DNA from: Pseudomonas sp. Leaf58
GTDB lineage: Bacteria; Pseudomonadota; Gammaproteobacteria; Pseudomonadales; Pseudomonadaceae
Assembly (NCBI RefSeq): GCF_003627215.1
Contig: NZ_CP032677.1
Location: forward strand, 1,927,501-1,991,500
Direction: 5' to 3'
Length of the DNA stretch: 64,000 nt
Positions within the stretch are counted from its first letter, which is position 1, and the number at the start of each line of letters is the position of its first letter. The translations under genes and the position numbers were made by a program. The notes below the pieces were generated by a model. The model was not told the origin of the DNA, did no database searches, and saw only the letters and a program-made list of their open reading frames with translations. Below are positions 9,366 to 64,000 of the stretch, piece by piece.

Positions 9366-10844
9366 CTATAGCTTCAGCTGGCCAATGGCCTTGTTCAGTT
9401 CGCCGGCCAGGGTCGCCAGTTCGTTACTGGTAGTCGCCGAGCCCACCGTTTGCTGCACCGTCCGTTCGGTGACATCGCGGATGCTCACCACGGCACGGTT
9501 CATTTCCTCGGCTACCTGGCTCTGCTGTTCGGCAGCCACGGCAATCTGCGTGTTGCTCTCGCGCATCTGCGCCACGGCACCGGTAATGTCGGCCAGCGCT
9601 TCACCGGCCGCCTGGGCCTGCCGGACGCAATCATCGGCCTTGTACGAGCTTTCCTGCATGAACTCCACCGCATCGCGGGTGCCCGACTGCAGGGCTGAGA
9701 CCATGCTGGTGATTTCGTCAGTGGAGGTTTGCACGCGCTTGGCCAGGTTGCGCACTTCATCGGCCACCACGGCAAAGCCGCGCCCCAAGTCGCCGGCACG
9801 CGCCGCTTCGATGGCGGCGTTGAGCGCCAGCAGGTTGGTCTGTTCGGCGATGCTGTGGATGACACTGACCACGCCGTTGATCTTCTGGCTGTCTTCAGCC
9901 AGTTGGCGAATCATCTCGGCGGTCTGCTGCACGCCGCTGGACAGCCCGGATATCGAATCCTGCACCCGGCTGACCACCTCTTTGCCACTGCCAGCCAGGC
10001 TGTCGGCGGTTTGTGACAGGTCGCGGGTGGCGCCGGCATGCTGGGCAATGTGGTGCACTGTCGCCGACATTTCGTTGATGGCGGTAGCAGCCTGGTCGGT
10101 CTCGCTCTGCTGGCCGAGCATGCCGCGGCGCACGTCGCTCATGCTCGCCGCCAGGCGCGCGGCGCCGAAATCCAATTGTGCGGCGGTGTGGGCGACGGTG
10201 CTGACCACGCGGTGGTAGGTCGCCTGCATGGCGTTGAAGGCCCCGGCCATCTGGCCGACCTCGTCGCCACAAGCCAGTGGCACGCGGGCCGACAAGTCGC
10301 CGGTTTTCTCTACGTGCAACATCACATCCTTGAGGGTATTGAGCTGGCTGAGCAAGAAGCGGATCAACAGCTGCGAGGCGCCGAGCATGGCCAGCATCAG
10401 GATCAACACGCACACCGCATAATTGCTGAAGCGGTCGAAGAACACCTGGCGCAGGCTGGGTGACTCGGCCAGCACGGCCACTTGCTGCTCACCGTGACGT
10501 AGCACCTGCGCGCCGCGTAACGGGTTGTCGCCGAGGATCCAGGCGTTTGCCAGTTCGACCCAGCCCTGGGCGTTGCGCAGGCTATCCAGAGGGGTGCCGG
10601 CGAAGCTGGGCGTTTGCCCGGCCGACCAGCTGATGACGTTGGCCTGGCGCGGCAGAGTTTGCCCGGCTGGCCAGGCGGCCAGCAGTTGGGCTTGCGCGGC
10701 GGCCTGGGCCTGCGCCGCCTCGGCTCGGGCGCGCTGCTCCAAGTGCACGGCATACAGCACCAGTAGCAAGGTGGTGACAAAGGCCACCGCGTTGACGGCC
10801 CAGAACTTGTATTTCAGGGAAACATTGCTAAGCCAGGCACCCAT
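9366..10844 (-). CDS. Methyl-accepting chemotaxis protein
   Basis: This 492-residue transmembrane chemoreceptor has a first membrane segment at about 13-33, a short periplasmic region of roughly 110 residues, and a second segment at about 145-165. A HAMP domain follows, then the long coiled-coil signalling domain with the conserved hairpin tip ([17 protein letters not shown]), where CheA and CheW bind. The small sensor region resembles none I can name, so the ligand is unknown. No C-terminal CheR-tethering pentapeptide is evident. It is transcribed alone. Confidence 0.9.
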
Positions 10845-44921: not shown

Positions 44922-45278
44922 TCAATCGCCGCTGTACTCGCAGCCACTGGTGCAGGTTTCGTGAATGCGCACCTTCGACAGCTCGGGCAGCAGCGGCTTG
45001 ACCTGATCCCAGATCCATTTGGCGATCACTTCGCTGGTGGGGTTTTCCAGGCCTGGGATGTCATTTAGGTAGTTGTGGTCCAGCTGCTCATAGATCGGCT
45101 TGAAGATGGCCTTGATCTCGGAGAAGTCGCGGATCCAGCCGGTGTGCGGATCGAGCGGGCCGGTCAGGTGCAGGCCGACCTTGAACGAATGCCCGTGCAG
45201 GCGACCGCATTTGTGGCCCGCTGGGACGTGGGGCAGGCGGTGGGCCGATTCGAATGTGAACTCTTTGAAAATTTCCAC
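44922..45278 (-). CDS. queD: 6-carboxy-5,6,7,8-tetrahydropterin synthase
   Basis: The 118-residue QueD/PTPS enzyme makes the precursor of queuosine from dihydroneopterin triphosphate. Zinc ligands are in FESAHRLP and CGRLHGHSF, with the active-site Cys in KCGR and the motif [18 protein letters not shown]; the C-terminus is [10 protein letters not shown]. It is complete. Its 5' side abuts prophage DNA within about 60 bp, so its promoter may have been altered by integration. Confidence 0.94.
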
Positions 45279-45341: not shown

Positions 45342-45554
45342 TCAATGTACTGATTGGTCGTCGCTGGGGTCGAAAGAGGTCATCCACTGGGTGATGTCCG
45401 ACTGGCGCCAGGCTACCGAATTGGGTCCTATCTTAACCTGTTTTGGAAAGGTGCCTTCACGGATTCTGCGATAGACGGTGTTCCGGCCGATCCCCGTCAC
45501 GTGCAGCACCTCGTCGAGGCGCAGGAAGCGATCGATGTTTTCTGCGTGTCGCAT
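45342..45554 (-). CDS. AlpA/excisionase-like helix-turn-helix protein
   Basis: The 70-residue protein MRHAENIDRFLRLDEVLHVTG continues with IGRNTVYRRIREGTFPKQVKIG and AWRQSDITQWM, the MerR/AlpA-type HTH of prophage regulators and excisionases. The start at 45554 has AAAGGAG five bases upstream. It is the last gene of the leftward operon and lies at the probable attachment end, suiting a directionality factor. The partner integrase is not found beside it. Confidence 0.85.
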   Translation of the reverse strand: MRHAENIDRFLRLDEVLHVTGIGRNTVYRRIREGTFPKQVKIGPNSVAWRQSDITQWMTSFDPSDDQSVH

Positions 45555-45577
45555 GGTGTCTCCTTTATATAGCAGGG

Positions 45578-45754
45578 TCAGGCCGTGAAGTGGTGCCCGA
45601 CCTTCGCCGCGCGGGCGGCTTCCTCGGTGCGGAACATGAGCTGGGTTGTGCCTGCGCGGCCTTCCGATTCGTACTCGGCCGATACCCACCAGTGGCCGAA
45701 CTTGCGGTACGGCTCGCCGAGGATCTTCGTGACGTAGCAGTCGATCAGGTTCAT
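45578..45754 (-). CDS. Small phage protein, unknown function
   Basis: A 58-residue ORF, MNLIDCYVTKILGEPYRKFG, with a probable beta-rich core (HWWVSAEYESEGRAGTTQLMF). GGAGA lies six bases before the ATG. It is 23 bp upstream of the alpA-like gene in the same direction. Function not recognised. Confidence 0.7.
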   Translation of the reverse strand: MNLIDCYVTKILGEPYRKFGHWWVSAEYESEGRAGTTQLMFRTEEAARAAKVGHHFTA

Positions 45755-45792
45755 GGATTGTCTCCACGCCGGCGGCGGCGGTAGGTTGGTGG

Positions 45793-49672: not shown

Positions 49673-51313
49673 TTAGTTGCCAAACAGGCTAAGCTGCGAT
49701 TCGGTAGCGCTCTCGCGGGCGGCGGCAACCTTCGCCTGCTCATGCTCGATGCGTGCTTTGGCAATCGCCAGGTACTCCGGATCGAGTTCGCAGCCGATGA
49801 ACTGGAATCCTTCACGCATGGCGGCCTTTCCAGTGCTACCGCTGCCCATGAACGGGTCAAGTGCGGTACCGCCTGGCGGGGTTACCAGGCGCAGCAAGTA
49901 GGCCATGAGATCAGTGGGTTTCACGGTGGGGTGATGATTGCCATTTCTCTTGGACCAGTCGGCCTGCTCACGTTCTCGCATGGTGGCGTTGGTTCTGACG
50001 GCCTTCTGGTCGCCATGGTCCAAGCCCTCATTGCGGTCCTTTCGACTGGTCTTGGTGCAGTAGAAGAACCGGGCGGCGCTGCCGGTGTCGGCGTGGAAGG
50101 CACCCTGCACGCGACCCATCATGCCGCTGTACGCGACAGCGCCGCTGAACCCGTTGGCCGTGGGTTCTGTGCCCTTCACCGGAGCGCTTGCGCCCGCTTC
50201 GGTCGGGAACAATGCAACGACCTCTGGACTACCATCATGAATCAGGTTGGCAGGCCAGCGGCCAAGCGAGCTTGGTACGCTCCGCTCAACGGTCTTGCCA
50301 TCCTGCCCTGGTACGACCGTCAGCTTCTTGCCCGGTCCGCCCCAGCCTGGCGTGCCGATCTCTGGTGCTTTTCCATCCGGCCAGCCAACACGACAACCGT
50401 CGATATTCAGCGCGCCGGTGCTATGGGCCAGTACGTTTGCTGCGACGGTACCGGCCAGCGGCTTGCGCGCCAGAACTATGGATTCCCAAGCGGGTTTTAG
50501 CGCAGTCCCCCAGCCTTGCCAGTCGCCGGTGAGGTTGTGGCTTTTGGGAAGCCCCGAACCAAATACCCAGCCCAGCGTGTCGCGCACTTCGAAGCCCGCA
50601 TCCTCAATCCCGCAAGCCAGTCGGTGGTATTGCCGAGTGGCGCCGAACGCCAGCATGTGGCCGCCCGGCTTCAAGATCCGCAGGCATTCCAACGACCATT
50701 GCCGCACCCAGTCTTGGAATTTGTGCCCAGACCACGGAACATCGGTGTACTTGCGAACATTCTCAAGGCGCGCCTTTAGCGCAGCGGCTCGCGTTTGGTC
50801 AGTGGCACCATGCCAGCGACTTCCGCGAGCGCGACCCAGCCACTCTTCAACCGCCTCTGCCCACACTTCGAAGTCGAGCGCTTTCTTTGCGGTCAGCGGG
50901 TACTTTCGGAATATCGCAACAAGCCGAGCGCATCCATCCTTGTTTTGGACGACATACCGAGCCTGTGGCTTGCTGGGAGTAGAGTCATCAGTCGCAGCGA
51001 TTGTGCCCGCTCCAACGAAGCGCCGGATCCGCTCAAGAACAGCTCGGTCGTCGTCCCGCAGCTTGATCTGGAATGCGCAGGTGTGAGTACCGCGCTCATG
51101 GCGCTGCACCCGGAAGCACCCCTCGCCGTCGGTGAAACCGGCCAGCCAGTAGCCGAAGCCGGCATCCTCTCGACCGTCATGGTTGTCCCACGATTTACCC
51201 ATGAATCCACCGGGTAAGGCATATGGAGGGTCAGTAACCACGCTGTCGATCGAGTTGTCAGGGATGGCTTTCAGGATGTCCAGGCAGTCGCCCAGGTGCA
51301 GCGTGTAGGTCAT
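49673..51313 (-). CDS. Phage DNA methyltransferase with an embedded LAGLIDADG domain
   Basis: From the ATG at 51313 (GGAG seven bases upstream) the protein has 546 residues. It is a beta-class N6-adenine/N4-cytosine methyltransferase: motif IV DPPY at 28-31 precedes motif I (DPFMGSGSTGKAAM and FIGCELDPEY) at the C-terminus. Between MGKSWDN and the expected ECLRILKPGGHMLAFGATRQYHR lies an extra segment of about 145 residues (roughly 45-190) beginning FGYWLAGFTDGEGCF, a LAGLIDADG motif, and continuing FRKYPLTAKKALDFEVW. No intein splice residues are seen at its edges. Target site unknown. Confidence 0.85.
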   Translation of the reverse strand: MTYTLHLGDCLDILKAIPDNSIDSVVTDPPYALPGGFMGKSWDNHDGREDAGFGYWLAGFTDGEGCFRVQRHERGTHTCAFQIKLRDDDRAVLERIRRFVGAGTIAATDDSTPSKPQARYVVQNKDGCARLVAIFRKYPLTAKKALDFEVWAEAVEEWLGRARGSRWHGATDQTRAAALKARLENVRKYTDVPWSGHKFQDWVRQWSLECLRILKPGGHMLAFGATRQYHRLACGIEDAGFEVRDTLGWVFGSGLPKSHNLTGDWQGWGTALKPAWESIVLARKPLAGTVAANVLAHSTGALNIDGCRVGWPDGKAPEIGTPGWGGPGKKLTVVPGQDGKTVERSVPSSLGRWPANLIHDGSPEVVALFPTEAGASAPVKGTEPTANGFSGAVAYSGMMGRVQGAFHADTGSAARFFYCTKTSRKDRNEGLDHGDQKAVRTNATMREREQADWSKRNGNHHPTVKPTDLMAYLLRLVTPPGGTALDPFMGSGSTGKAAMREGFQFIGCELDPEYLAIAKARIEHEQAKVAAARESATESQLSLFGN

Positions 51314-51401
51314 GGCAGGCTCCAGGCGTGCAGGCGCCGCCCTCGCCGGGGAGGCGTTCATCGTTTGAGAGGGGAAGGCGCTGGCGGGCAGCGCCGGAGG
51401 G

Positions 51402-52695: not shown

Positions 52696-52860
52696 TCATG
52701 GGTGGCACACCTCAATGGGCGTTTTCTTCGTCGAGCCTGACGGCATGACCACCAGTAGACGCTTGTTTCCTCGGTATACGCCCCAAGGCTGACCAGTGGA
52801 TCTGGCCATGGCCGCCGCGTACTTCACGGCTGGCACAGGCTGAGACAGGGTGGCGATCAT
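52696..52860 (-). CDS. Small protein coupled to ssb
   Basis: A 54-residue [23 protein letters not shown] followed by [20 protein letters not shown]. It begins at an ATGA overlap with the ssb stop codon, so it is translated by coupling. Small and basic; function unknown. Confidence 0.6.
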
Positions 52861-53378
52861 GCGCCCGCCAGGTGGTGGAGCGGGGCGAACGGGATATCGT
52901 CGTCGAAGCTGTCGTAGTCCGGCGGCGCGGCCTGCTGGTTCTGCTGTGGCGCCTGGCGCTGCTGCTGGCGGGGCTGCTGTTGCCTTTGCTGCTGGGGTTG
53001 GCGCTGTTGATACTGCTGGCCGCCACCCTGGTTGTCGGGCCTTCCGCCCAGAAGCTGAAGGGTTCCGTTGATGTCGACGTTTACCTCTGTGGCGTACCGC
53101 TTTATCCCGTCCTGTTCCCATTCGCGGGTCTTCAGCTTGCCTTCGATGTAGCACTGGGAGCCTTTGCGCAGGTACTCACCGGCGATTTCCGCGACCTTGC
53201 CGAACAGCACGACGCGGTGCCATTCGGTCTTCTCGACCTTCTGGCCACTCTGTCTGTCGTTCCACGATTCGCTGGTGGCCAAGCTGACATTGGCGACCGC
53301 AGTACCGTTTGGCAGGTACCGGATTTCCGGGTCCCGGCCGCAGGTGCCTACCAGGATGACTTTGTTGATGCCTCTCAT
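52857..53378 (-). CDS. ssb: Single-stranded DNA-binding protein
   Basis: The 173-residue SSB has the OB-fold [57 protein letters not shown], and a Gln/Pro-rich linker. The acidic interaction tip DDDIPF is present, but nine residues (APLHHLAGA) follow it, whereas in most SSBs the tip is terminal. It overlaps the upstream exonuclease gene by four bases and joins a recombination cassette. Confidence 0.93.
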
Positions 53379-54019
53379 GCGGCTTTGCTCCTCAGCTTGA
53401 CCTCGTATTCGTCAACGAGCAGCTTGAACTGCCAGAGGTCTTCCTCCAGCTTCTCGATGTAGTTGTCGTCACGTTTGAATTCCTGCCACCAGAGCTGGCG
53501 GCCGACGGGGCGCAGATCCGGGCAATAGAGGCCGATGTGCCACCACTTCCTGCCCGTGATCCACATACAGCCTTGGACTTGGTCCATGATCTCGCTGGCA
53601 TCGTTGTCGATGTGGAAGGACCGCAGCTTCTCGGGTGCTAGAAAGCACTTGTACTCGCTGCCGCCATCCTCGCCGATGAAACCGTCTGCGCTGGCGCCAA
53701 ACGCGCCGTCGTCAGTCTTGACCAGGCCGACTTGAGTGACGATCAAGCCCGTTTGAATTTCATGCTCCATGCGGGCTTCGGGTTCGAGTTCGTGGCCTCG
53801 CCTCATTTGCCAGGTCTCGAACCCGTTATCCAGCGGTTTTCCGCTGATCCGCTCGACTGCCAGCCTGAATGCGTAGTCGAGAGCTTTGGCGGTGGGCTCG
53901 CCTTTGTTCGGACCAGATTTCAGCCGGGCCCTGGCGTCGCCAAACATACTGGCGGTAATGACGCCTGCACGCGCTGCGTGCCACTCTGCGGAGCCCTGGG
54001 CGCAATTGACGATGATCAT
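53375..54019 (-). CDS. YqaJ / lambda-exonuclease-type recombinase nuclease
   Basis: The 214-residue protein has the PD-(D/E)XK phage exonuclease pattern: [54 protein letters not shown] with catalytic Asp, Glu and Lys, and [24 protein letters not shown]. Such 5'-3' exonucleases make 3' single strands for the annealing partner. Its ATG overlaps the stop of the erf gene. Confidence 0.88.
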
Positions 54020-54777
54020 TGGGGAGTCTCCATTGCAGTTTTCCGCTTAGTCACGGCGATCTTCACCGTGTCGTACCCGGCCTTGTCACCACTGGCCTGC
54101 ATGACCTTTACGGATGCCTGCCAAACATCCTTGAGCTCGTCGGGGGTTGAGGCTGCTTCGACCTGGTCAAGGATGTCGTTCAGCGCCTGGGCTCGCATTT
54201 CTGCCGTATCGGAGCCATCCGACGATTGCGCGTCGTCGTCGCGAACGTCGCTGGTAGTGATGTTCAGCAAGGCGCACATGACGTATCGCTTGCCGTAGGT
54301 GGTGGAGGAGCCAACCGCCTGGACCTCGTTCCGACCTTTGCCGATATCGGCCGGCAGGCTCATGGTGGTCTGTTCCCGGTGCCCATCGCGGTGCATCAAT
54401 ATCCCGGTGACGCTGATTGCCTTTTCCAGGTTCTCTACCTTGAAGGTGATTGCGAAGCCATGCCGCTGCATGATCGGCTTGATGATGCGGGTGATGTCGT
54501 CCAGCGTTGCGTAGGCGTTGCCCGTGTGCAGGTTCACCGCGGCTTCGAACACGGTCGGGATCTCGCACTGCATCTGGGCCATGCCGGCGTTGAATGCTGC
54601 CTCGGCAGTCTTGGCCTGCATGCGCTCATGCATGGCCAGAAGGCGCTCCATCTTCTCGATGTCACAGGACGGATCTGCAGCTGCTCGGCTGATCACCGCC
54701 ATGATGCTGTTGTCGACGGGGCCGGGCGCAGCCACTGCCTGGCGGCGCTGTTCCGGCACAATGATTGCGCTGGTCAT
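54016..54777 (-). CDS. ERF-family single-strand annealing protein
   Basis: The 253-residue protein matches the ERF superfamily: MQAKTAEAAFNAGMAQMQCEIP, YATLDDITRIIKPIMQRHGFAITF, GHREQTTMSLP, and QAVGSSTTYGKRYVMCALLNI. ERF proteins anneal complementary strands and circularise phage DNA. It is coupled to the exonuclease and SSB genes, forming a Red-like pair plus SSB. Confidence 0.9.
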   Translation of the reverse strand: MTSAIIVPEQRRQAVAAPGPVDNSIMAVISRAAADPSCDIEKMERLLAMHERMQAKTAEAAFNAGMAQMQCEIPTVFEAAVNLHTGNAYATLDDITRIIKPIMQRHGFAITFKVENLEKAISVTGILMHRDGHREQTTMSLPADIGKGRNEVQAVGSSTTYGKRYVMCALLNITTSDVRDDDAQSSDGSDTAEMRAQALNDILDQVEAASTPDELKDVWQASVKVMQASGDKAGYDTVKIAVTKRKTAMETPQ

Positions 54778-57343: not shown

Positions 57344-57543
57344 GCAGCCTCCTTGCGCCGTACGGCAATACGCCGGATGCGCTCGCAGTAGTGTTTGAAC
57401 TCGTTGGAATCGATGGCTAGGAGAGAGAAATAGGCCACCGCCAGGGTTTCGGCCTTCGCTTCCTCAACCGGCCCAGAGCCCGGCAGAAGCATCGTCTCGA
57501 TTGCTGCCTCGATGGCGCTGACCGCCACGCTGTGAGGAGTCAT
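57340..57543 (-). CDS. Small helical phage protein
   Basis: A 67-residue ORF, MTPHSVAVSAIEAAIETMLL, with EEAKAETLAVAYFSLLAIDS and a basic end (RIRRIAVRRKEAA). It overlaps both neighbours by four bases, so coupled translation is clear. Function unknown. Confidence 0.65.
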   Translation of the reverse strand: MTPHSVAVSAIEAAIETMLLPGSGPVEEAKAETLAVAYFSLLAIDSNEFKHYCERIRRIAVRRKEAA

Positions 57544-57962
57544 TGCGCCTCCTCGGCCTGGGCCAGCACTCCCTCTTTGGCGAAGGGGGTTAGGAGCTGG
57601 CGGGCGATCTCTTCCAGCGCTGACTCGGGATTGGCAACGCTCAGGATCTCGTCGGCCGCTGCCGCGGCATCGCTGGTGACCTTACAGCGCGCTGCCAGGA
57701 CCAGGCGACCCAGCACTGAGTTGCTGATCCCCGACAGGCCAAGCTGCCCCATGACGAACTCGTCGACTGCCTGGGCGAAGCGCTCGAAGGTGACGCCCAT
57801 CTGCGGCCGCAGGCGGCGCTGGAACACGAAATCGCGGCGCGCCATCAGCTCAGCGATGCCGTCGTCGATCCAGCGTTCTTCGGCGCCGTCAGCTTCGCTT
57901 TCGCTCACCGCCGGCGGCATCCGGTTGTCGTACTCAAACTGTGATGCTCGAAGTGCGCCCAT
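57540..57962 (-). CDS. Hypothetical phage protein
   Basis: The 140-residue product starts MGALRASQFEYDNRMPPAVS and contains AERWIDDG-like EERWIDDGIAELMARRDFVF and FAQAVDEFVMGQLGLSGISN. GGAGG lies upstream of the ATG. Mostly helical; no family recognised. Confidence 0.7.
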   Translation of the reverse strand: MGALRASQFEYDNRMPPAVSESEADGAEERWIDDGIAELMARRDFVFQRRLRPQMGVTFERFAQAVDEFVMGQLGLSGISNSVLGRLVLAARCKVTSDAAAAADEILSVANPESALEEIARQLLTPFAKEGVLAQAEEAQ

Positions 57963-57983
57963 GGTCGCCTCCAGGTGGTGGAT

Positions 57984-58397
57984 TCAGTCGGTGTATGCGA
58001 TGTACTTGAAGCGGCCATTGCCGAATTGCTCGAAGCGGCCCCCGAAGGTCCCGCGAACCTCGCGCTCAACCTCTTCGCGGCTCATGTGCGGCGGGTATAC
58101 CCCGTCCTTGATCATCGAGAAGTGGGTGTGAGGCACAAAGCGCCAATCGACCTTGCTTGGGTCAAGTGGGCGCGGCTCGGGTGGCTGCCATGGCTTGCCC
58201 TTGTAGGATTCGAGCGGCGGCGTTGGGTCTTCCGACTCCTCCCATCCGCAGGCTTCGCAGTAGCCGCGCGGCGCGGTGCAGGCGCCGCATGGTGGAGAGA
58301 TATGGCAGCTGCAATTCACTACCCTGTGGGACTCGACGACGCCCTCGCAGCCGTCACGGCCGCAGGTGTCCCCCTCCAAGTATCCAAGTTGGGTCAT
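57984..58397 (-). CDS. Cysteine-rich (zinc-ribbon-like) phage protein
   Basis: The 137-residue protein begins MTQLGYLEGDTCGRDGCEGV and has three closely spaced cysteine pairs: CGRDGC, CSCHISPPCGAC and CEACGW, suggesting one or two zinc sites. The C-terminal half contains DWRFVPHTHFSMIKDGVYPPHM. It opens the leftward four-gene unit beside the packaging module. Function unknown. Confidence 0.7.
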   Translation of the reverse strand: MTQLGYLEGDTCGRDGCEGVVESHRVVNCSCHISPPCGACTAPRGYCEACGWEESEDPTPPLESYKGKPWQPPEPRPLDPSKVDWRFVPHTHFSMIKDGVYPPHMSREEVEREVRGTFGGRFEQFGNGRFKYIAYTD

Positions 58398-58418
58398 AGC
58401 TTCACCCGGGCGGCGAGC

Positions 58419-58643
58419 ATGGCATCGGCGTATCGTCTCCGCGCGCTGGGTCGCATGGCCGAGAAGGCCGAGAGCATGAAGAACATGGCCCTGACTGCCC
58501 AGTTGCTTGAGCAGGCAGCCAAAGAGGTCGGCGACGTATACGTGAATCGGCAGACGAAGGTGGACAGCCCGCTCGATAACGCGGTACCCACTTCGGTGCA
58601 GGTCACGGTGATGGATGCGAGGAAGCGCGATGCCGACGCTTAA
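58419..58643 (+). CDS. Possible small terminase subunit or packaging-associated protein
   Basis: A 74-residue ORF, MASAYRLRALGRMAEKAESM, ending QVTVMDARKRDADA and overlapping the terminase start by 14 bp. Position directly ahead of the large terminase is where a small subunit is expected, but the sequence shows no clear HTH. The ribosome site is weak and the frame is open further upstream, antisense to the cysteine-rich gene. Confidence 0.5.
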   Translation: MASAYRLRALGRMAEKAESMKNMALTAQLLEQAAKEVGDVYVNRQTKVDSPLDNAVPTSVQVTVMDARKRDADA

Positions 58644-59928
58644 CGTCCCTCAGGCCACGTTCATCAACATGCCGCACAAGTTCCGCGGCTTCGTCGCTGG
58701 GTTCGGCTCAGGCAAGACCTGGGTAGGCTGCGCCGGCATCTGCAAGCACGTTTGGGAATGGCCCAGGATCAACTCCGGCTACTTCGCCCCGACTTACCCG
58801 CAGATCCGCGACATCTTCTTTCCGACCATCGAAGAGGTCGCCTTCGACTGGGGCCTGAAGGTCAAGACGAAGGAGAGCGACAAGGAAGTCGAGTTCTACA
58901 GCGGCGGCCAGTACCGCAGCACAACCATCTGCCGCTCGATGGAGAAGCCGCAGACCATCGTTGGATTCAAGATCGGCCACGGCCTGGTAGACGAACTCGA
59001 CGTTTTGCCCAAGCTCAAGGCTGAGCACGCCTGGCGCAAGATCATCGCCCGGATGCGCTACAGCGTACCTGGGCTGAAGAACGGCGTAGACGTGACCACG
59101 ACCCCAGAGGGGTTCAAGTTCGTCTACCAGCAGTTCGTGAAGCATCTGCGCGAGAAGCCAGCCCTGCAGGGGATGTATGGCCTGGTGCAGGCCAGCACGT
59201 TCGACAATGAGCTGAACCTTCCGCCTGACTACATCCCGTCGCTGATGGAGTCGTACCCGGCCCAGCTGATCCTGGCCTACCTGAATGGCCAGTTCGTCAA
59301 CCTGAACGCCGGCTCGATCTACCACGCCTACGACCGGAAGCTGAACTCCTGCTTCGACACCGTGGAGCCTGGAGAACCCCTGTTCATCGGTATGGACTTC
59401 AACGTCGGCAAGATGGCGGCGATCGTCCATGTCAAGCGGCCTGACGGAAAGCCCAGGGCCGTGGATGAGCTGATCGATGGCTTCGATACCCCGGACATGA
59501 TCCGGCGCATCAAGGAGCGCTACTGGCGGCACAACGGCCGGGACTACGAGAAGACCTGCGAAATCAGGATTTACCCCGACGCCTCGGGCGGGTCGCGCAA
59601 GTCGGTGAATGCCAGCGAGACGGACATTGCCATCCTGCGGCAGGCCGGCTTCAGCGTCATCGCCCCCGAGGCCAACCCCCCGGTAAAAGACCGGATCAAC
59701 GCCATGAACGCGATGTTCTGCAACGCGAATGGCGAACGCCGCTACCTGATAAACCCGCTGCGCTGCCCGACCTATGCAGACGGCCTGGAGCAGCAGGTGT
59801 GGGCTACCAACGGTGAGCCCGACAAGAAATCCGGCGTGGACCACGCGAACGACGCCGGCGGCTACTTCATCCACCACGACTACCCAATTGAACGACCGGT
59901 CTTCACGACCCAATCCCTGAGAATGTGA
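58630..59928 (+). CDS. terL: Phage terminase large subunit
   Basis: The 432-residue packaging motor has an N-terminal ATPase with Walker A GFGSGKT (about 28-34) and GHGLVDELDV with Walker B-type acidic residues, and a C-terminal RNase-H-like nuclease with LFIGMDFNVGKMAAI and IYPDASGGSRK supplying Asp residues, closing DHANDAGGY. ATG at 58630 has GAGGAA seven bases upstream. It starts the rightward structural operon. Confidence 0.94.
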   Translation: MPTLNVPQATFINMPHKFRGFVAGFGSGKTWVGCAGICKHVWEWPRINSGYFAPTYPQIRDIFFPTIEEVAFDWGLKVKTKESDKEVEFYSGGQYRSTTICRSMEKPQTIVGFKIGHGLVDELDVLPKLKAEHAWRKIIARMRYSVPGLKNGVDVTTTPEGFKFVYQQFVKHLREKPALQGMYGLVQASTFDNELNLPPDYIPSLMESYPAQLILAYLNGQFVNLNAGSIYHAYDRKLNSCFDTVEPGEPLFIGMDFNVGKMAAIVHVKRPDGKPRAVDELIDGFDTPDMIRRIKERYWRHNGRDYEKTCEIRIYPDASGGSRKSVNASETDIAILRQAGFSVIAPEANPPVKDRINAMNAMFCNANGERRYLINPLRCPTYADGLEQQVWATNGEPDKKSGVDHANDAGGYFIHHDYPIERPVFTTQSLRM

Positions 59929-59930
59929 CC

Positions 59931-61337
59931 ATGAGCGATAACCCGAGCATCACGCTGCCCGCTGTCGACGCGATGCGCGCCTACTGGGCCGTGATCTCGC
60001 CGCTCATGGGTGGAACGATGGCGATGCGCGCGGCGGGCAAGACCCTGCTGCCGCAGTACCCAGCCGAAGACGACGAGGCCTACAAAGAGCGCCTGCGCCT
60101 CTCGACCCTGCTGCCGGCGTATTCCGAGACCGTGGGCAACATGACCTCCCGAGTGTTCGCCGAGCCGCTGCAGGTTGGTGACGATGTGCCAGAGGCCATT
60201 GTCCAGATGACCACGGACATCGATCACGCCGGCAACGACCTGAATTCCTGGGCTGTTGGCTTCTTCACCGAGGGGCTGAGCCACGGCCTGTGCCATGCTT
60301 TCGTCGATCATCCCCCGGCGGGCGAGCTGAAGACCCAGGCCGATGAGCAGGCCGCCGGTGTGCGCCCATACGTTGTGATGGTGAGGCCTGAGCAGGTTCT
60401 GGGCTGGCGCTCCAAGGGCGGCGTCCTGACCATGGTCCGATACATCGAGGTGGTCGAGGAAGAGGATGGCGACTTCGGCGCCAAGTGCGTCGAGCAGATC
60501 CGCGTGCTCGAACCTGGATCATGGCGAACCTATCGCAGGTCGGCCAAGGCCGTACGGGGCAAGCAGGCCGCAGCTGGAGGTACCTGGGAGCAGTACGATG
60601 AGGGCACCAACAGCCTGACCGCTATCCCTTGGGTAACCTTCTACACCGGCCGTACCGGCTTCATGACTGCCAAGCCGCCGCTGATCGAGCTGGCACACCT
60701 GAACGTGAAGCACTGGCAGAGCCAGAGCGACCAGGACAACATCCTCCACGTCATCCGCGTGCCGATCCTGGTGCGCATCGGCATCCAGACACAGTACGAC
60801 AACCAGGGGAAGGTGATCCCTCCAGAGTTCAAGGTTGGCACCGGCCAGCTGACCGATCTGCCTAGGGACTGTGACCTCAAGTATGTAGAGCACACCGGCC
60901 AGGCCGTAGAGTCGGGTCGCACCGCGCTGCAGGACCTGATCAACGAGATGCGCATGGCCGGGGCCAAGCTGCTGACGCAGGACAAAACGGCAACCAAGAC
61001 CGCCACCCAGGCTGAGGAGGAGGCGGCGCAAGAGCTGTCCCCGCTGGCGCGCATGGCGCACCACTTCGCCGACTGCCTGGCGCAACTGCTCCAGTTCATG
61101 GCCGATTATCGCGGCCTGGGCGACGGCGGAACCGTCGAGATGCGCGGCAACTTCGATGTCGACTACATGCCAGAGGTGTCGCTACCTACGCTGGTCACCA
61201 TGGCTAATGCCGGCATGATCAGCAAGGAGACGCTATTCACCGAGATGCAGCGGCGCGGTGTGATCAGTGACGAATACGACTGGGAAGAGGAGCTCGCGAA
61301 GATTGAGGCCCAGGGCCCGGCTCTCGGTACGCTGTGA
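59931..61337 (+). CDS. Phage portal protein (DUF4055 type)
   Basis: The 468-residue protein starts MSDNPSITLPAVDAMRAYWA. It shows the DUF4055 pattern LRLSTLLPAYSETVGNMTSRVFAEPL, GLSHGLCHAFVDHP, IPWVTFYTGRTGFMTAKPPL and an HW.SQSDQ motif. The portal forms the dodecameric ring at the packaging vertex. It begins 2 bp after the terminase stop and overlaps the MuF gene start. Confidence 0.88.
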   Translation: MSDNPSITLPAVDAMRAYWAVISPLMGGTMAMRAAGKTLLPQYPAEDDEAYKERLRLSTLLPAYSETVGNMTSRVFAEPLQVGDDVPEAIVQMTTDIDHAGNDLNSWAVGFFTEGLSHGLCHAFVDHPPAGELKTQADEQAAGVRPYVVMVRPEQVLGWRSKGGVLTMVRYIEVVEEEDGDFGAKCVEQIRVLEPGSWRTYRRSAKAVRGKQAAAGGTWEQYDEGTNSLTAIPWVTFYTGRTGFMTAKPPLIELAHLNVKHWQSQSDQDNILHVIRVPILVRIGIQTQYDNQGKVIPPEFKVGTGQLTDLPRDCDLKYVEHTGQAVESGRTALQDLINEMRMAGAKLLTQDKTATKTATQAEEEAAQELSPLARMAHHFADCLAQLLQFMADYRGLGDGGTVEMRGNFDVDYMPEVSLPTLVTMANAGMISKETLFTEMQRRGVISDEYDWEEELAKIEAQGPALGTL

Positions 61338-62413
61338 TGAAGACGGCCAACGAGAAGCTGCTGGATGAGCTGATCGGGCATGAGGTCGACCTTACGCACC
61401 TGAGCAATGCCCAGGTCGTCGAAATCATCAAGATCCTGAACAGCCAGGATGCGGAATTGCGGGCTGCGCTGATAGAGGAGATCGACGGTATCGGTCCTGA
61501 CCTCTCCGAATCAGCCGTAGCGCTCGCCTTGGCCGGCGTGTTGGGAATCAACCGGGCCGTCTTCGCTCGAGTCCGGCAGGCCTTAACCCAATCAACAGAC
61601 GACCTGATCAGGTACGAGCTGTCGTTCGTTCACAGTGCGCTTCACGCTGTGCTCCCAGCTCTAGTGCAGGATCAATTCCCGGTCAAATCAGCCGATTTCG
61701 GTTCAGTGCAGTCAGCCGCGAGAGCTCTGCCATTTCAGGGCAGGTTGATCAGCGAATGGCTGGCCGGCATTGAGTCGGGGCGGGCGGCCTCTATCCGCGA
61801 TGCTGTGCGAGCAGGCGTTGTGGATGGCAAGCACGCTGCTGAAATCGTCCGGTCAATCATGGGAACAAGGGCAGAGCGGTATGCCGACGGCGTCTTGCAG
61901 AAGTCGCGCCGCGATCTCGAATCGGTGGTGCGTTCAGCGGTATCGAGCGCAGCGGAAGTGGCAAGCGACAAGGTATTCGAGGCAAACAGCGTCCTCATAA
62001 GCCATGTCGAGTGGATCAGCATCCTGGATAGCAGGACCACGGTCATGTGCCGCATCCGTGACCGGCTGCCTTACACGCTGGGTACCTACAAGCCCATCGG
62101 TCACAAGATCCCATGGCTAGCCGGCCCGGGCAGGCTGCACTTCTGCTGCCGGTCATCCAAGTGGCCGGTGCTTAAGAGCGCAAAAGAGCTTGGCATCACC
62201 GACGCCGAGGCCATGGCATTGATGGACGGCCAGTCGCCCCAGCAGACGACATTCGGGGAGTGGCTGGAGCGTCAGCCAGCAGCGAGGCAGGATCGGATCC
62301 TCGGGCCTGAGCGCGGCAAGCTGATGCGCCAGGGCAAGTTGAAGCTGCAGGACTTCTACAACGACAAGGGCAACTTCCTGAGGCTCGATGAGCTGCGGGA
62401 TCGACTGCTATAG
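61337..62413 (+). CDS. Phage head morphogenesis protein (MuF/SPP1 gp7-like)
   Basis: The 358-residue protein has a variable N-terminal helical part and a C-terminal MuF domain: SHVEWISILDSRTTVMCRIRD, IPWLAGPGRLHFCCRSSKWPV with conserved Cys and His. MuF-domain proteins sit inside the capsid near the portal. ATG at 61337 overlaps the portal stop (TGATG). The extended C-terminus (LERQPAARQDRILGPERGKLMRQGKL) is common in this group. Confidence 0.88.
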   Translation: MKTANEKLLDELIGHEVDLTHLSNAQVVEIIKILNSQDAELRAALIEEIDGIGPDLSESAVALALAGVLGINRAVFARVRQALTQSTDDLIRYELSFVHSALHAVLPALVQDQFPVKSADFGSVQSAARALPFQGRLISEWLAGIESGRAASIRDAVRAGVVDGKHAAEIVRSIMGTRAERYADGVLQKSRRDLESVVRSAVSSAAEVASDKVFEANSVLISHVEWISILDSRTTVMCRIRDRLPYTLGTYKPIGHKIPWLAGPGRLHFCCRSSKWPVLKSAKELGITDAEAMALMDGQSPQQTTFGEWLERQPAARQDRILGPERGKLMRQGKLKLQDFYNDKGNFLRLDELRDRLL

Positions 62414-62461
62414 CCCGCGCCACAAAACACCAAGCGCCATTTCGTGGCGCGCAATTCCAGA

Positions 62462-62486
62462 GCCTCGCCCAGTGCGGGGCTTTTTC
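62462..62486 (+). terminator. Terminator or attenuator between MuF and scaffold genes
   Basis: GCCTCGC/GCGGGGC around CCAGT is followed by TTTTT. It lies within the head operon, so it may tune relative expression of downstream capsid genes. Confidence 0.65.
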
Positions 62487-62563
62487 ATGCCTGCGGTTCG
62501 GATGGACGGGGCGACCTGGGGCCGGATGGCTCACCAACAGGCCGGATGGCCCAGAGAGACGAG

Positions 62564-63310
62564 ATGAAACTCAAGACTGTTGAAGTGGATGGTAAGCAGT
62601 ACGCAGTGATCGAAGACGGGAAACCAGTCTATGTGGAAGACGACGGCAAAGAAGTCGCCTTCGACGCAGTGGGCACCCGTAACACCATCACCCGGCTGAA
62701 CGCCGAGGCCAAGTCGCATCGCGAGCGTGCCGATGGATTCGAGAAGGTCGCCAAGGCCTTCGAGGGCATCGAGGATGCTGCCGCTGCGCGCAAGGCCCTG
62801 GAAACTGTCGCCAATCTCGACGCCAAGAAGCTGGTGGATGCCGGCGAGATCGAGAAGGTGAAGGGCGAGATCAGCAAGGCCTTCCAGACCCAGCTGGACG
62901 AAGCCAACACCAAGGCGCAGACCTTCGAGCAGCAGCTGTATGCCGAGAAGATCGGCGGGAGCTTTGCCCGTTCCCAGTTCATCGCCGAGAAGATGGCTGT
63001 GCCGGCTGACATGGTTCAGGCCACCTTTGGCAGCAACTTCAAGATCGAGGAAGGCAAGGTCGTCGCTTATGACGCCCAAGGCCAGAAGGTCTTCAGTCGC
63101 TCCCGTCCAGGCGAACTGGCCGACTTCAACGAAGCGCTCGAGACTCTCGTCTCGCAGTACCCCCATCGTGACCACATCTTGAAGAGCTCCGGCGCCAATG
63201 GTGGCGGCGCTCCAAATGGCGGTGGCCAGCACAAACCTACGAAGGGCAACTTCGGTGGCTCCAAGGCAGAGCGCCTGGAAGCCATCAAGGGCCTGACCGC
63301 AAGCGAATAA
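62564..63310 (+). CDS. Capsid scaffold protein (DUF6651-like)
   Basis: The 248-residue protein starts MKLKTVEVDGKQYAVIEDGK. A Lys/Glu/Ala-rich helical core (RADGFEKVAKAFEGIEDAAAARKALE) is followed by SFARSQFIAEKMAVPADMVQATFG and a Gly/Asn-rich tail. This is typical of scaffolds between MuF and the major capsid gene. GAGAGACGAG precedes the ATG at 62564. Confidence 0.82.
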   Translation: MKLKTVEVDGKQYAVIEDGKPVYVEDDGKEVAFDAVGTRNTITRLNAEAKSHRERADGFEKVAKAFEGIEDAAAARKALETVANLDAKKLVDAGEIEKVKGEISKAFQTQLDEANTKAQTFEQQLYAEKIGGSFARSQFIAEKMAVPADMVQATFGSNFKIEEGKVVAYDAQGQKVFSRSRPGELADFNEALETLVSQYPHRDHILKSSGANGGGAPNGGGQHKPTKGNFGGSKAERLEAIKGLTASE

Positions 63311-63319
63311 GGAGGCCCA

Positions 63320-63910
63320 ATGGCCCTTTCGAACATGAAGGTGTTCAACGAATACCTCAAACGCACCACCATCGAGACCCTGGCCCAGGACGTCGAGAAG
63401 TTCAACGCATCTTCGGCCGGCGCCATCCGCCTTACCACCCAGGGCATCGACGGCGACTTCCTCCAGGAATCGTTCTGGGCTGGCCTTCACGGCGCCCAGC
63501 GTCGTGTCGACCGCTACGCTGCCAACGGCAACCAGGCGTCTACCCCGCTGTGCACGACCGAGGATGGCCGCACGCTTACCTTCATTGCGATGGCCATGGA
63601 CCTGGCCCTGCCCAAGAACGACAACAGTGCATTCCAGAACCTGGTGCTGGGCCTGGACAACGTGACCGGCGAAGTGCAGGAGGTCGTGGAGGAGGCCAAG
63701 GCGGCCGACGAGCGCTTCATTATCACTTTCCGGCGCTATCTGGCCGAGGACCTGACGTTCCCGCAAGAGCGGTACCGCATGACGCTGCTCAGCCGGGAAT
63801 ATGAAGACGACGTGGCCAAGCTCACCGCCGGATTCTTCGACCTGCTCAACACCAACGGTCTGCGCACCGTGCTGACCACCACCCTGGCACCTGGCCTGAA
63901 GTACCTCTAA
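63320..63910 (+). CDS. Chimeric ORF: major capsid N-terminus fused to a DUF1833 tail protein
   Basis: Residues 1 to about 76 (MALSNMKVFNEYLKRTTIET, FLQESFWAGLHGAQRRVDRYA) match the start of major capsid proteins of siphophages with DUF4055 portals. From about residue 78 the sequence changes to a DUF1833 minor tail protein: CTTEDGRTLTFIAMAMDLAL, LVLGLDNVTGEVQEVVEEA, RYRMTLLSREYEDDVAKLTA. The rest of the capsid (normally over 300 residues) and the first part of DUF1833 are missing. The fusion is in frame and lies near 63545. A functional capsid protein is unlikely. Confidence 0.8.
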   Translation: MALSNMKVFNEYLKRTTIETLAQDVEKFNASSAGAIRLTTQGIDGDFLQESFWAGLHGAQRRVDRYAANGNQASTPLCTTEDGRTLTFIAMAMDLALPKNDNSAFQNLVLGLDNVTGEVQEVVEEAKAADERFIITFRRYLAEDLTFPQERYRMTLLSREYEDDVAKLTAGFFDLLNTNGLRTVLTTTLAPGLKYL

Positions 63911-63912
63911 TC

Positions 63913-64000
63913 ATGATCGAGAAATTCATGCGCGCCGGGGTGCGCGACTCCATCGACATCTCCAAGCCGCAGGTGCTGCGTGAGGCCGTGCTGGGCATCA
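63913..64000 (+). CDS. Probable tail-assembly protein, N-terminal fragment
   Basis: An open frame MIEKFMRAGVRDSIDISKPQ starts 2 bp after the previous stop and runs off the window. The position after DUF1833 suits a small tail assembly protein; the family cannot be set from 29 residues. Confidence 0.55.
   Translation, partial: MIEKFMRAGVRDSIDISKPQVLREAVLGI

Follow-up and report, generated by a model that had tools for sequence, protein, structure and literature searches.

Defective (cryptic) prophages decay by internal deletion, and essential modules are cut or lost in the process. Phage satellites, such as PICI and P4-like elements, have a gene set of their own that recurs as a unit in several genomes. 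Useful points of comparison for the locus described here are Pseudomonas phage PS-1 (NC_029066) and G207 (an IMG/VR record, L071), in which the gene order from terminase to capsid, DUF1833 and central tail protein is the same as in the window, the whole stretch of 64,000 nucleotides from Pseudomonas sp. Leaf58 that was analysed. In both of them the capsid and DUF1833 genes are whole, whereas in the window they are present as fused remnants within a single open reading frame (ORF).

An element between att-like repeats

The fused ORF belongs to a 21.7-kb element bracketed by two copies of a 17-bp direct repeat, which enclose 21,677 bases and are the longest exact repeat found when 65561-67400 is compared with the first 60 kb. 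The window forms part of a 5.43-Mb contig, whose sequence beyond the window end was read as well. The border and the retained genes of the element are as follows.

44922-45278, minus strand: ORF that we take, from its protein, to be queD-like; its start is covered by the att-like repeat
45262..45278: attL-like copy of the 17-bp direct repeat, TCTTTGAAAATTTCCAC; the other copy is at 66922-66938, beyond the window end
45342..45767, minus strand: AlpA-like excisionase/regulator (phrog_2790, 6.8e-14), at the left end of the element
52857..54777, minus strand: single-strand binding protein, exonuclease and Erf-like annealing protein (phrog_44, phrog_149 and phrog_155), ORFs open
58615..59928, plus strand: large terminase (PF03237 1.1e-30, PF17289 7.3e-09), open
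59925..61337, plus strand: portal protein (PF13264 5.2e-43, phrog_145 1.3e-136), open
61334..62413, plus strand: head morphogenesis protein (phrog_241 6.4e-113), open
62444..63310, plus strand: scaffold-like protein (phrog_784 1.3e-109, phrog_206 head scaffolding 7.7e-22, PF20356 4.3e-48), open

The prophage is inserted at the very start of the queD-like gene, whose first codons lie inside the att-like repeat, and an integrase (phrog_1, 5.7e-76) is located at its right end. The head operon is arranged normally, from the presumed small-terminase remnant through the large terminase, the portal, the head morphogenesis protein and the scaffold-like gene to the fusion ORF. The element thus combines att-like repeats and an integrase with the loss of virion and lysis genes expected of a defective prophage, the capsid, the presumed small terminase and one endolysin all being cut. 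Among 20 other element ORFs typed with PHROGs, two of which gave no PHROG match, neither a repressor, apart from the AlpA-like regulator, nor a further endolysin was found. A side observation concerns a 562-aa phage DNA methyltransferase (49673-51361, minus strand), whose large insertion matches an HNH family (phrog_5046) at residues ~71-138 and contains a LAGFTDGEG stretch that, in our reading, recalls LAGLIDADG homing endonucleases; judged from its sequence, the insertion could be an in-frame homing element or an intein.

G207 is collinear with the window from 57960 on and breaks at three points, designated here joints A, B and C. Between its joints, the window lacks the G207 genes for the tail tube, the tape measure and the central tail. 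The genes that intervene in G207 include one for a phrog_290 tail protein and one for a J-like central tail protein. Summed over the three joints, the losses amount to 28-31 kb. An ORF of G207 between 62370 and 62455 is also absent from the window, so not every difference from G207 need be a deletion. As for the IMG/VR records, 16 of 23 exceed 40 kb (range 43.7-66.8 kb) and seven, including the record of this prophage, are shorter, these being record lengths with unchecked ends.

The capsid/DUF1833 fusion and joint B

63320..63910, plus strand: fusion ORF, ATG start, 196 aa, recognised by domain and PHROG matches and by DNA alignments
63549..63551: joint B, where in DNA alignments the capsid homology of closer relatives ends and DUF1833 homology begins

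The capsid-derived part of the fusion consists of residues 1-76/77 (63320-63549) of a Gp13-like major capsid protein, and the tail-derived part corresponds to DUF1833 residues 40-159 (63548-63907). In domain searches, fusion residues 5-81 match positions 1-76 of the 313 of PF20036 (Gp13-like capsid; 5.2e-22), and residues 79-179 match positions 42-144 of the 150 of PF08875 (DUF1833; 2.9e-15); when the two halves are searched separately, both families are found again (3.6e-22 for the capsid and 2.5e-15 for DUF1833). Likewise, the ORF matches phrog_247, a major head protein (1.7e-09), and phrog_396, a minor tail protein (1.3e-33). An intact relative covers PF20036 from 1 to 313, and PF08875 is covered from 8 to 144 in an intact relative; the fusion spans neither, about 245 of 321 capsid residues and about 39 of 159 DUF1833 residues being missing. 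These matches bear out the first-pass annotation, which had described an in-frame capsid/DUF1833 fusion whose first ~76 residues are a major-capsid N-terminus in the place expected after the scaffold; the C-terminal part had been given as two-thirds of a DUF1833 protein, and here the family is correct but the fraction is about three quarters, the last 120 of 159 residues.

At joint B, the sequence is ACCCCGCTG in the capsid relatives, after which their own gene continues, GGGTGTGCAC in the DUF1833 relatives and CCGCTGTGCAC in the window. Two bases, at most three, are common to both sides, the compared sequences being those of relatives and not of parents. Among the matches listed, 11 IMG/VR loci have capsid DNA aligning up to joint B together with a DUF1833 gene (L056, L059, L064, L065, L067, L079, L081, L092, L105, L106 and L126), and in them the two points lie 8,593-9,842 bases (8.6-9.8 kb) apart; they count as ten distinct loci because L064 and L065 have the same sequence. 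Other duplicates in the data are L128 (P. taiwanensis), identical to L059, and the pairs L112 and L130, and L111 and L129. The corresponding distance, read from coordinates, is about 10.5 kb in PS-1, and it reaches 13.1 kb in G207, where ORFs in the tape-measure region (L151:17007-19309), which from an ORF reading only we presume to be transposase-like, probably explain part of the larger value. Since the capsid and DUF1833 points are kilobases apart in relatives, a deletion fits the joint, one that would have taken away the body of the capsid together with the connectors, the tail tube and the tape measure, as the first-pass annotation had proposed. That deletion is, however, one of three, and for this reason joint B is not by itself the disarming step.

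The phages nearest to the capsid half are not those nearest to the DUF1833 half, as would be expected if a crossover between two different prophages had made the joint. The closest capsids (L081, L079 and L126) accompany DUF1833 genes at 85-91% DNA identity, while the closest DUF1833 loci include L052 and L053, with capsids at only 70-71% identity, and L048-L051, for which a capsid match was not found in the flanking DNA compared. None of the sampled loci has both nearest halves in one phage, and because of this a crossover retains a small share of the probability. On the other hand, the family is mosaic in general, the genes follow one another, in order and orientation, as in a single phage, and in the own genome the fusion query has one match, namely the fusion itself. 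A crossover is thus rather unlikely, and each break is best read as a deletion inside one phage.

Joints A and C and a parallel loss

57984..58397, minus strand: last early gene before joint A (phrog_22771, 9.2e-74)
58398..58427: joint A, mapped to an interval and not to a base, with the early gene on one side and the presumed small terminase, from about its codon 88, on the other
58428..58643, plus strand: presumed small-terminase remnant, the last 71 of 159 codons
63914..64000, plus strand: second fusion ORF of 53 aa, which continues beyond the window to L002:4075
about 63936/63937: joint C, beginning 26 bases past the fusion ORF 63320-63910

Joint A does not fuse one gene to another. The early gene on its left is complete at 58397, with 57960-58397 aligning to G207 9782-10219, and on its right G207 homology starts at 58427, which corresponds to roughly codon 88 in the 159-codon presumed small terminase. 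The intact form of this gene is phrog_546, and it takes its name from its place before TerL. This right-side homology starts at 58427/58428 in seven of the 16 capsid-bearing loci L133-L148 and later in the other nine. The two points are 13.5 kb apart in G207 (10219 and 23722), a size taken from this single comparator, which is also the only one used for the gene-by-gene reading of the region. Encoded in the G207 stretch are a CI-like repressor, a second small repressor that would be Cro by its place, a holin and RusA, and the presumed small terminase also starts within it.

The reading frame is preserved at joint C as well: the next tail gene contributes its first 8 residues (MIEKFMRA), and an endolysin supplies its last 45. 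The MIEKFMRA start resembles the tail gene that directly follows DUF1833 in relatives, and the intact partners are phrog_329 (minor tail protein) and phrog_873 (endolysin), the endolysin being seen in relatives with an intact length of about 145 aa. Among the matches listed, these points are 6,176-7,701 bases (6.2-7.7 kb) apart in ten loci (L049, L052, L057, L065, L068, L075, L097, L107, L115 and L116, the last two with the same sequence); relative to G207, the break lies between 63936 and 63988. The neighbours of joint C have at most 2-3 bases in common, and the spanin gene that follows (phrog_312) has an open ORF. We estimate that both gene-gene joints would be in frame by chance in 1 in 9 cases, one third for each; this counts against a purely accidental origin of the fusions, yet a special cause is not needed.

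An assembly or chimeric-read error, named by the first-pass annotation as the dull alternative, could also produce such joints, and the only other record found to carry joint B, an identical IMG/VR record (L047), may derive from the same assembly. Nevertheless, there is no N within the 99,999 bases read, and the three breaks occur in one otherwise collinear element between att-like repeats. Moreover, joints B and C have no more than 2-3 bases in common with the sequences of relatives, too short a match for repeats to have misled the assembly. We consider such an error highly improbable.

Another prophage of the group carries a different deletion. In L075 (IMGVR_UViG_2808606363_000001), a related 26-kb record, the early gene with homology to 57540-57962 runs straight into DUF1833 near codon 9-12 of the latter (L075:9502-10363); what G207 carries between these two points is not located between them there, and tail-tip, fibre and lysis ORFs follow the junction. 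Together with the losses in the window, this indicates that large head-tail losses have occurred at least twice in the group. A breakpoint hotspot in DUF1833 (codon ~9-12 in L075 and codon 40 here) was considered and rejected, two cases being too few. Three of 89 DUF1833 rows represent this prophage (the window, L047 and L127), and among the other 86, not all of them independent owing to duplicate sequences, only L075 is without the gene start; in L132 and L149 the start is present and a recognised upstream neighbour is absent.

Distribution and likely fate of the fusion

The fusion was found in this prophage and in one identical record. In 194 genomes, the own genome included, 17 have a match, and both halves are spanned in the own genome only; of 50,697 phage records, 255 match and none has one place covering 80% of the query; and none of 22 genome_contigs loci, obtained with the fusion gene as the only query and one genome per species, spans the joint. 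In IMG/VR, one of the best 80 of 254 confirmed relatives spans residues 1-196, and a degenerate joint-spanning DNA pattern finds one stretch, both on the identical contig. The sequences covered were these genomes, the phage records, IMG/VR and genome_contigs, and records very near the window may be missing from them. The identical record, 2643221775_000002 (L047), has 0 mismatches to the chromosome over 13,436 bases and a listed identity of 100% over 18,649 queried bases; it may represent the very strain of the window and for this reason is not counted as independent proof. No full-length homologue of the 196-aa protein, which would have spoken against the proposed deletion, was found elsewhere in the sequences searched. 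Three loci (L112, L121 and L130) that seemed to span residues 25 to 195/196 proved to be ordinary intact DUF1833 genes. Broken capsid genes of the same family were seen separately in two further genomes of the genus, at L012 and L016 (G047 and G055), one reduced to a frame of 112 residues and the other interrupted by an internal stop.

The size of 21.7 kb and the retention of an integrase and an AlpA-like regulator could also suggest a phage satellite with a shaped-down genome. The presumed small terminase, endolysin and capsid are, however, cut mid-gene, and the joint was found in one record only, identical to the window; we consider a satellite very unlikely.

Both parts of the fusion have diverged little from their relatives. 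The capsid part differs from L081 by 7 synonymous and 0 nonsynonymous codon changes, from L079 by 9 and 0, and from L126, over a shorter stretch, by 7 and 0, with 1-2 nonsynonymous changes against six other loci compared. The DUF1833 part has 23 synonymous changes and 1 nonsynonymous change against L048, 22-24 synonymous and 1 nonsynonymous each against L048, L049 and L050, and 2-6 nonsynonymous against the other eight loci. In terms of sequence this low divergence would fit a recent deletion, and it would be equally compatible with selection on the fusion or on its intact ancestors.

Structural models bear on what the truncated tail half could still do. The AlphaFold model of an intact DUF1833 relative has a mean pLDDT of 63.9 (44.0-63.9 over five models), and in this low-confidence model the part lost from the fusion holds two predicted strands, at 15-23 and 29-34. 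Its best structural match is the Sf11 tail (9occ_F, 1.8e-4), followed by the JBD30 baseplate protein and the lambda tail tip (8iyk_L, 1.1e-3), and a profile search against 9occ_F gives 0.014 only; because model confidence is modest, these matches are suggestive and point tentatively to a gpL-like role for the DUF1833 protein. The model of the fusion itself is uninformative (mean pLDDT 42.7), its alignment A4 covering the tail half only. For the capsid, a solved full-length relative is available (8xb6, 1.5e-56). Another alignment, A2, was discarded as misaligned, because the capsid pieces came out at 33-38% identity although they are known to be much more similar.

The first-pass annotation had also raised the possibility that the fusion interferes with related phages. 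If expressed and retained, its capsid N-arm could bind their scaffold or capsid and poison assembly, and both fused ORFs and the adjoining scaffold-like gene are indeed open. The capsid part lacks nonsynonymous changes against its three nearest relatives, and close relatives of the capsid are present in the genus (four of the 194 genomes besides the own at E 1.5e-39 or better, and 16 of the 22 genome_contigs loci). Against this, the G207 stretch lost at joint A holds the repressors, the holin and the start of the operon, and 0 sigma-70-type promoter matches were found in 57500-64000 versus 0.9 expected, a weak test. In addition, the tail half is without the two predicted strands, the fusion was not found in the sequences searched other than the identical record, and a recent deletion predicts low divergence equally well. 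The claim of interference is accordingly unsupported, and we regard it as very unlikely. The same slight probability applies to its fullest form, a new 196-aa dominant-negative protein whose N-arm docks while the tail-tip domain blocks shell growth, and which the host keeps as an anti-phage factor. The fusion product is presumably without function and probably little expressed.

A decayed prophage with three internal deletions, of which B fused the capsid to DUF1833 in frame by chance, is very probably the correct explanation; our confidence is held at this level because joint A is not mapped to the base and its size comes from one comparator. A lambda-like temperate phage of roughly 50 kb would have integrated at the start of the queD-like gene in a Pseudomonas chromosome, and the prophage would then have lost about 28-31 kb. 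Deletion B, probably recent, would have arisen by illegitimate recombination between sites that share no more than 2-3 bases, joining capsid codon 76/77 to DUF1833 codon 40 with the reading frame preserved by chance.

As a clear example of module loss, this prophage shows three breaks relative to its relatives, two of them mapped within a few bases. Were the fused ORF expressed and active, it would mean that decay can create an anti-phage protein, an idea that finds no support here. Compared with DUF1833/lambda gpL-like tail-tip proteins, the fusion keeps the last 120 residues and has lost the first 39. Like cryptic prophages, the element keeps an integrase, att-like repeats and some open genes; unlike cryptic prophages generally, it has open fused ORFs at two of its three joints. 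Overall, it is a defective prophage of the ordinary kind, with large losses in three places.
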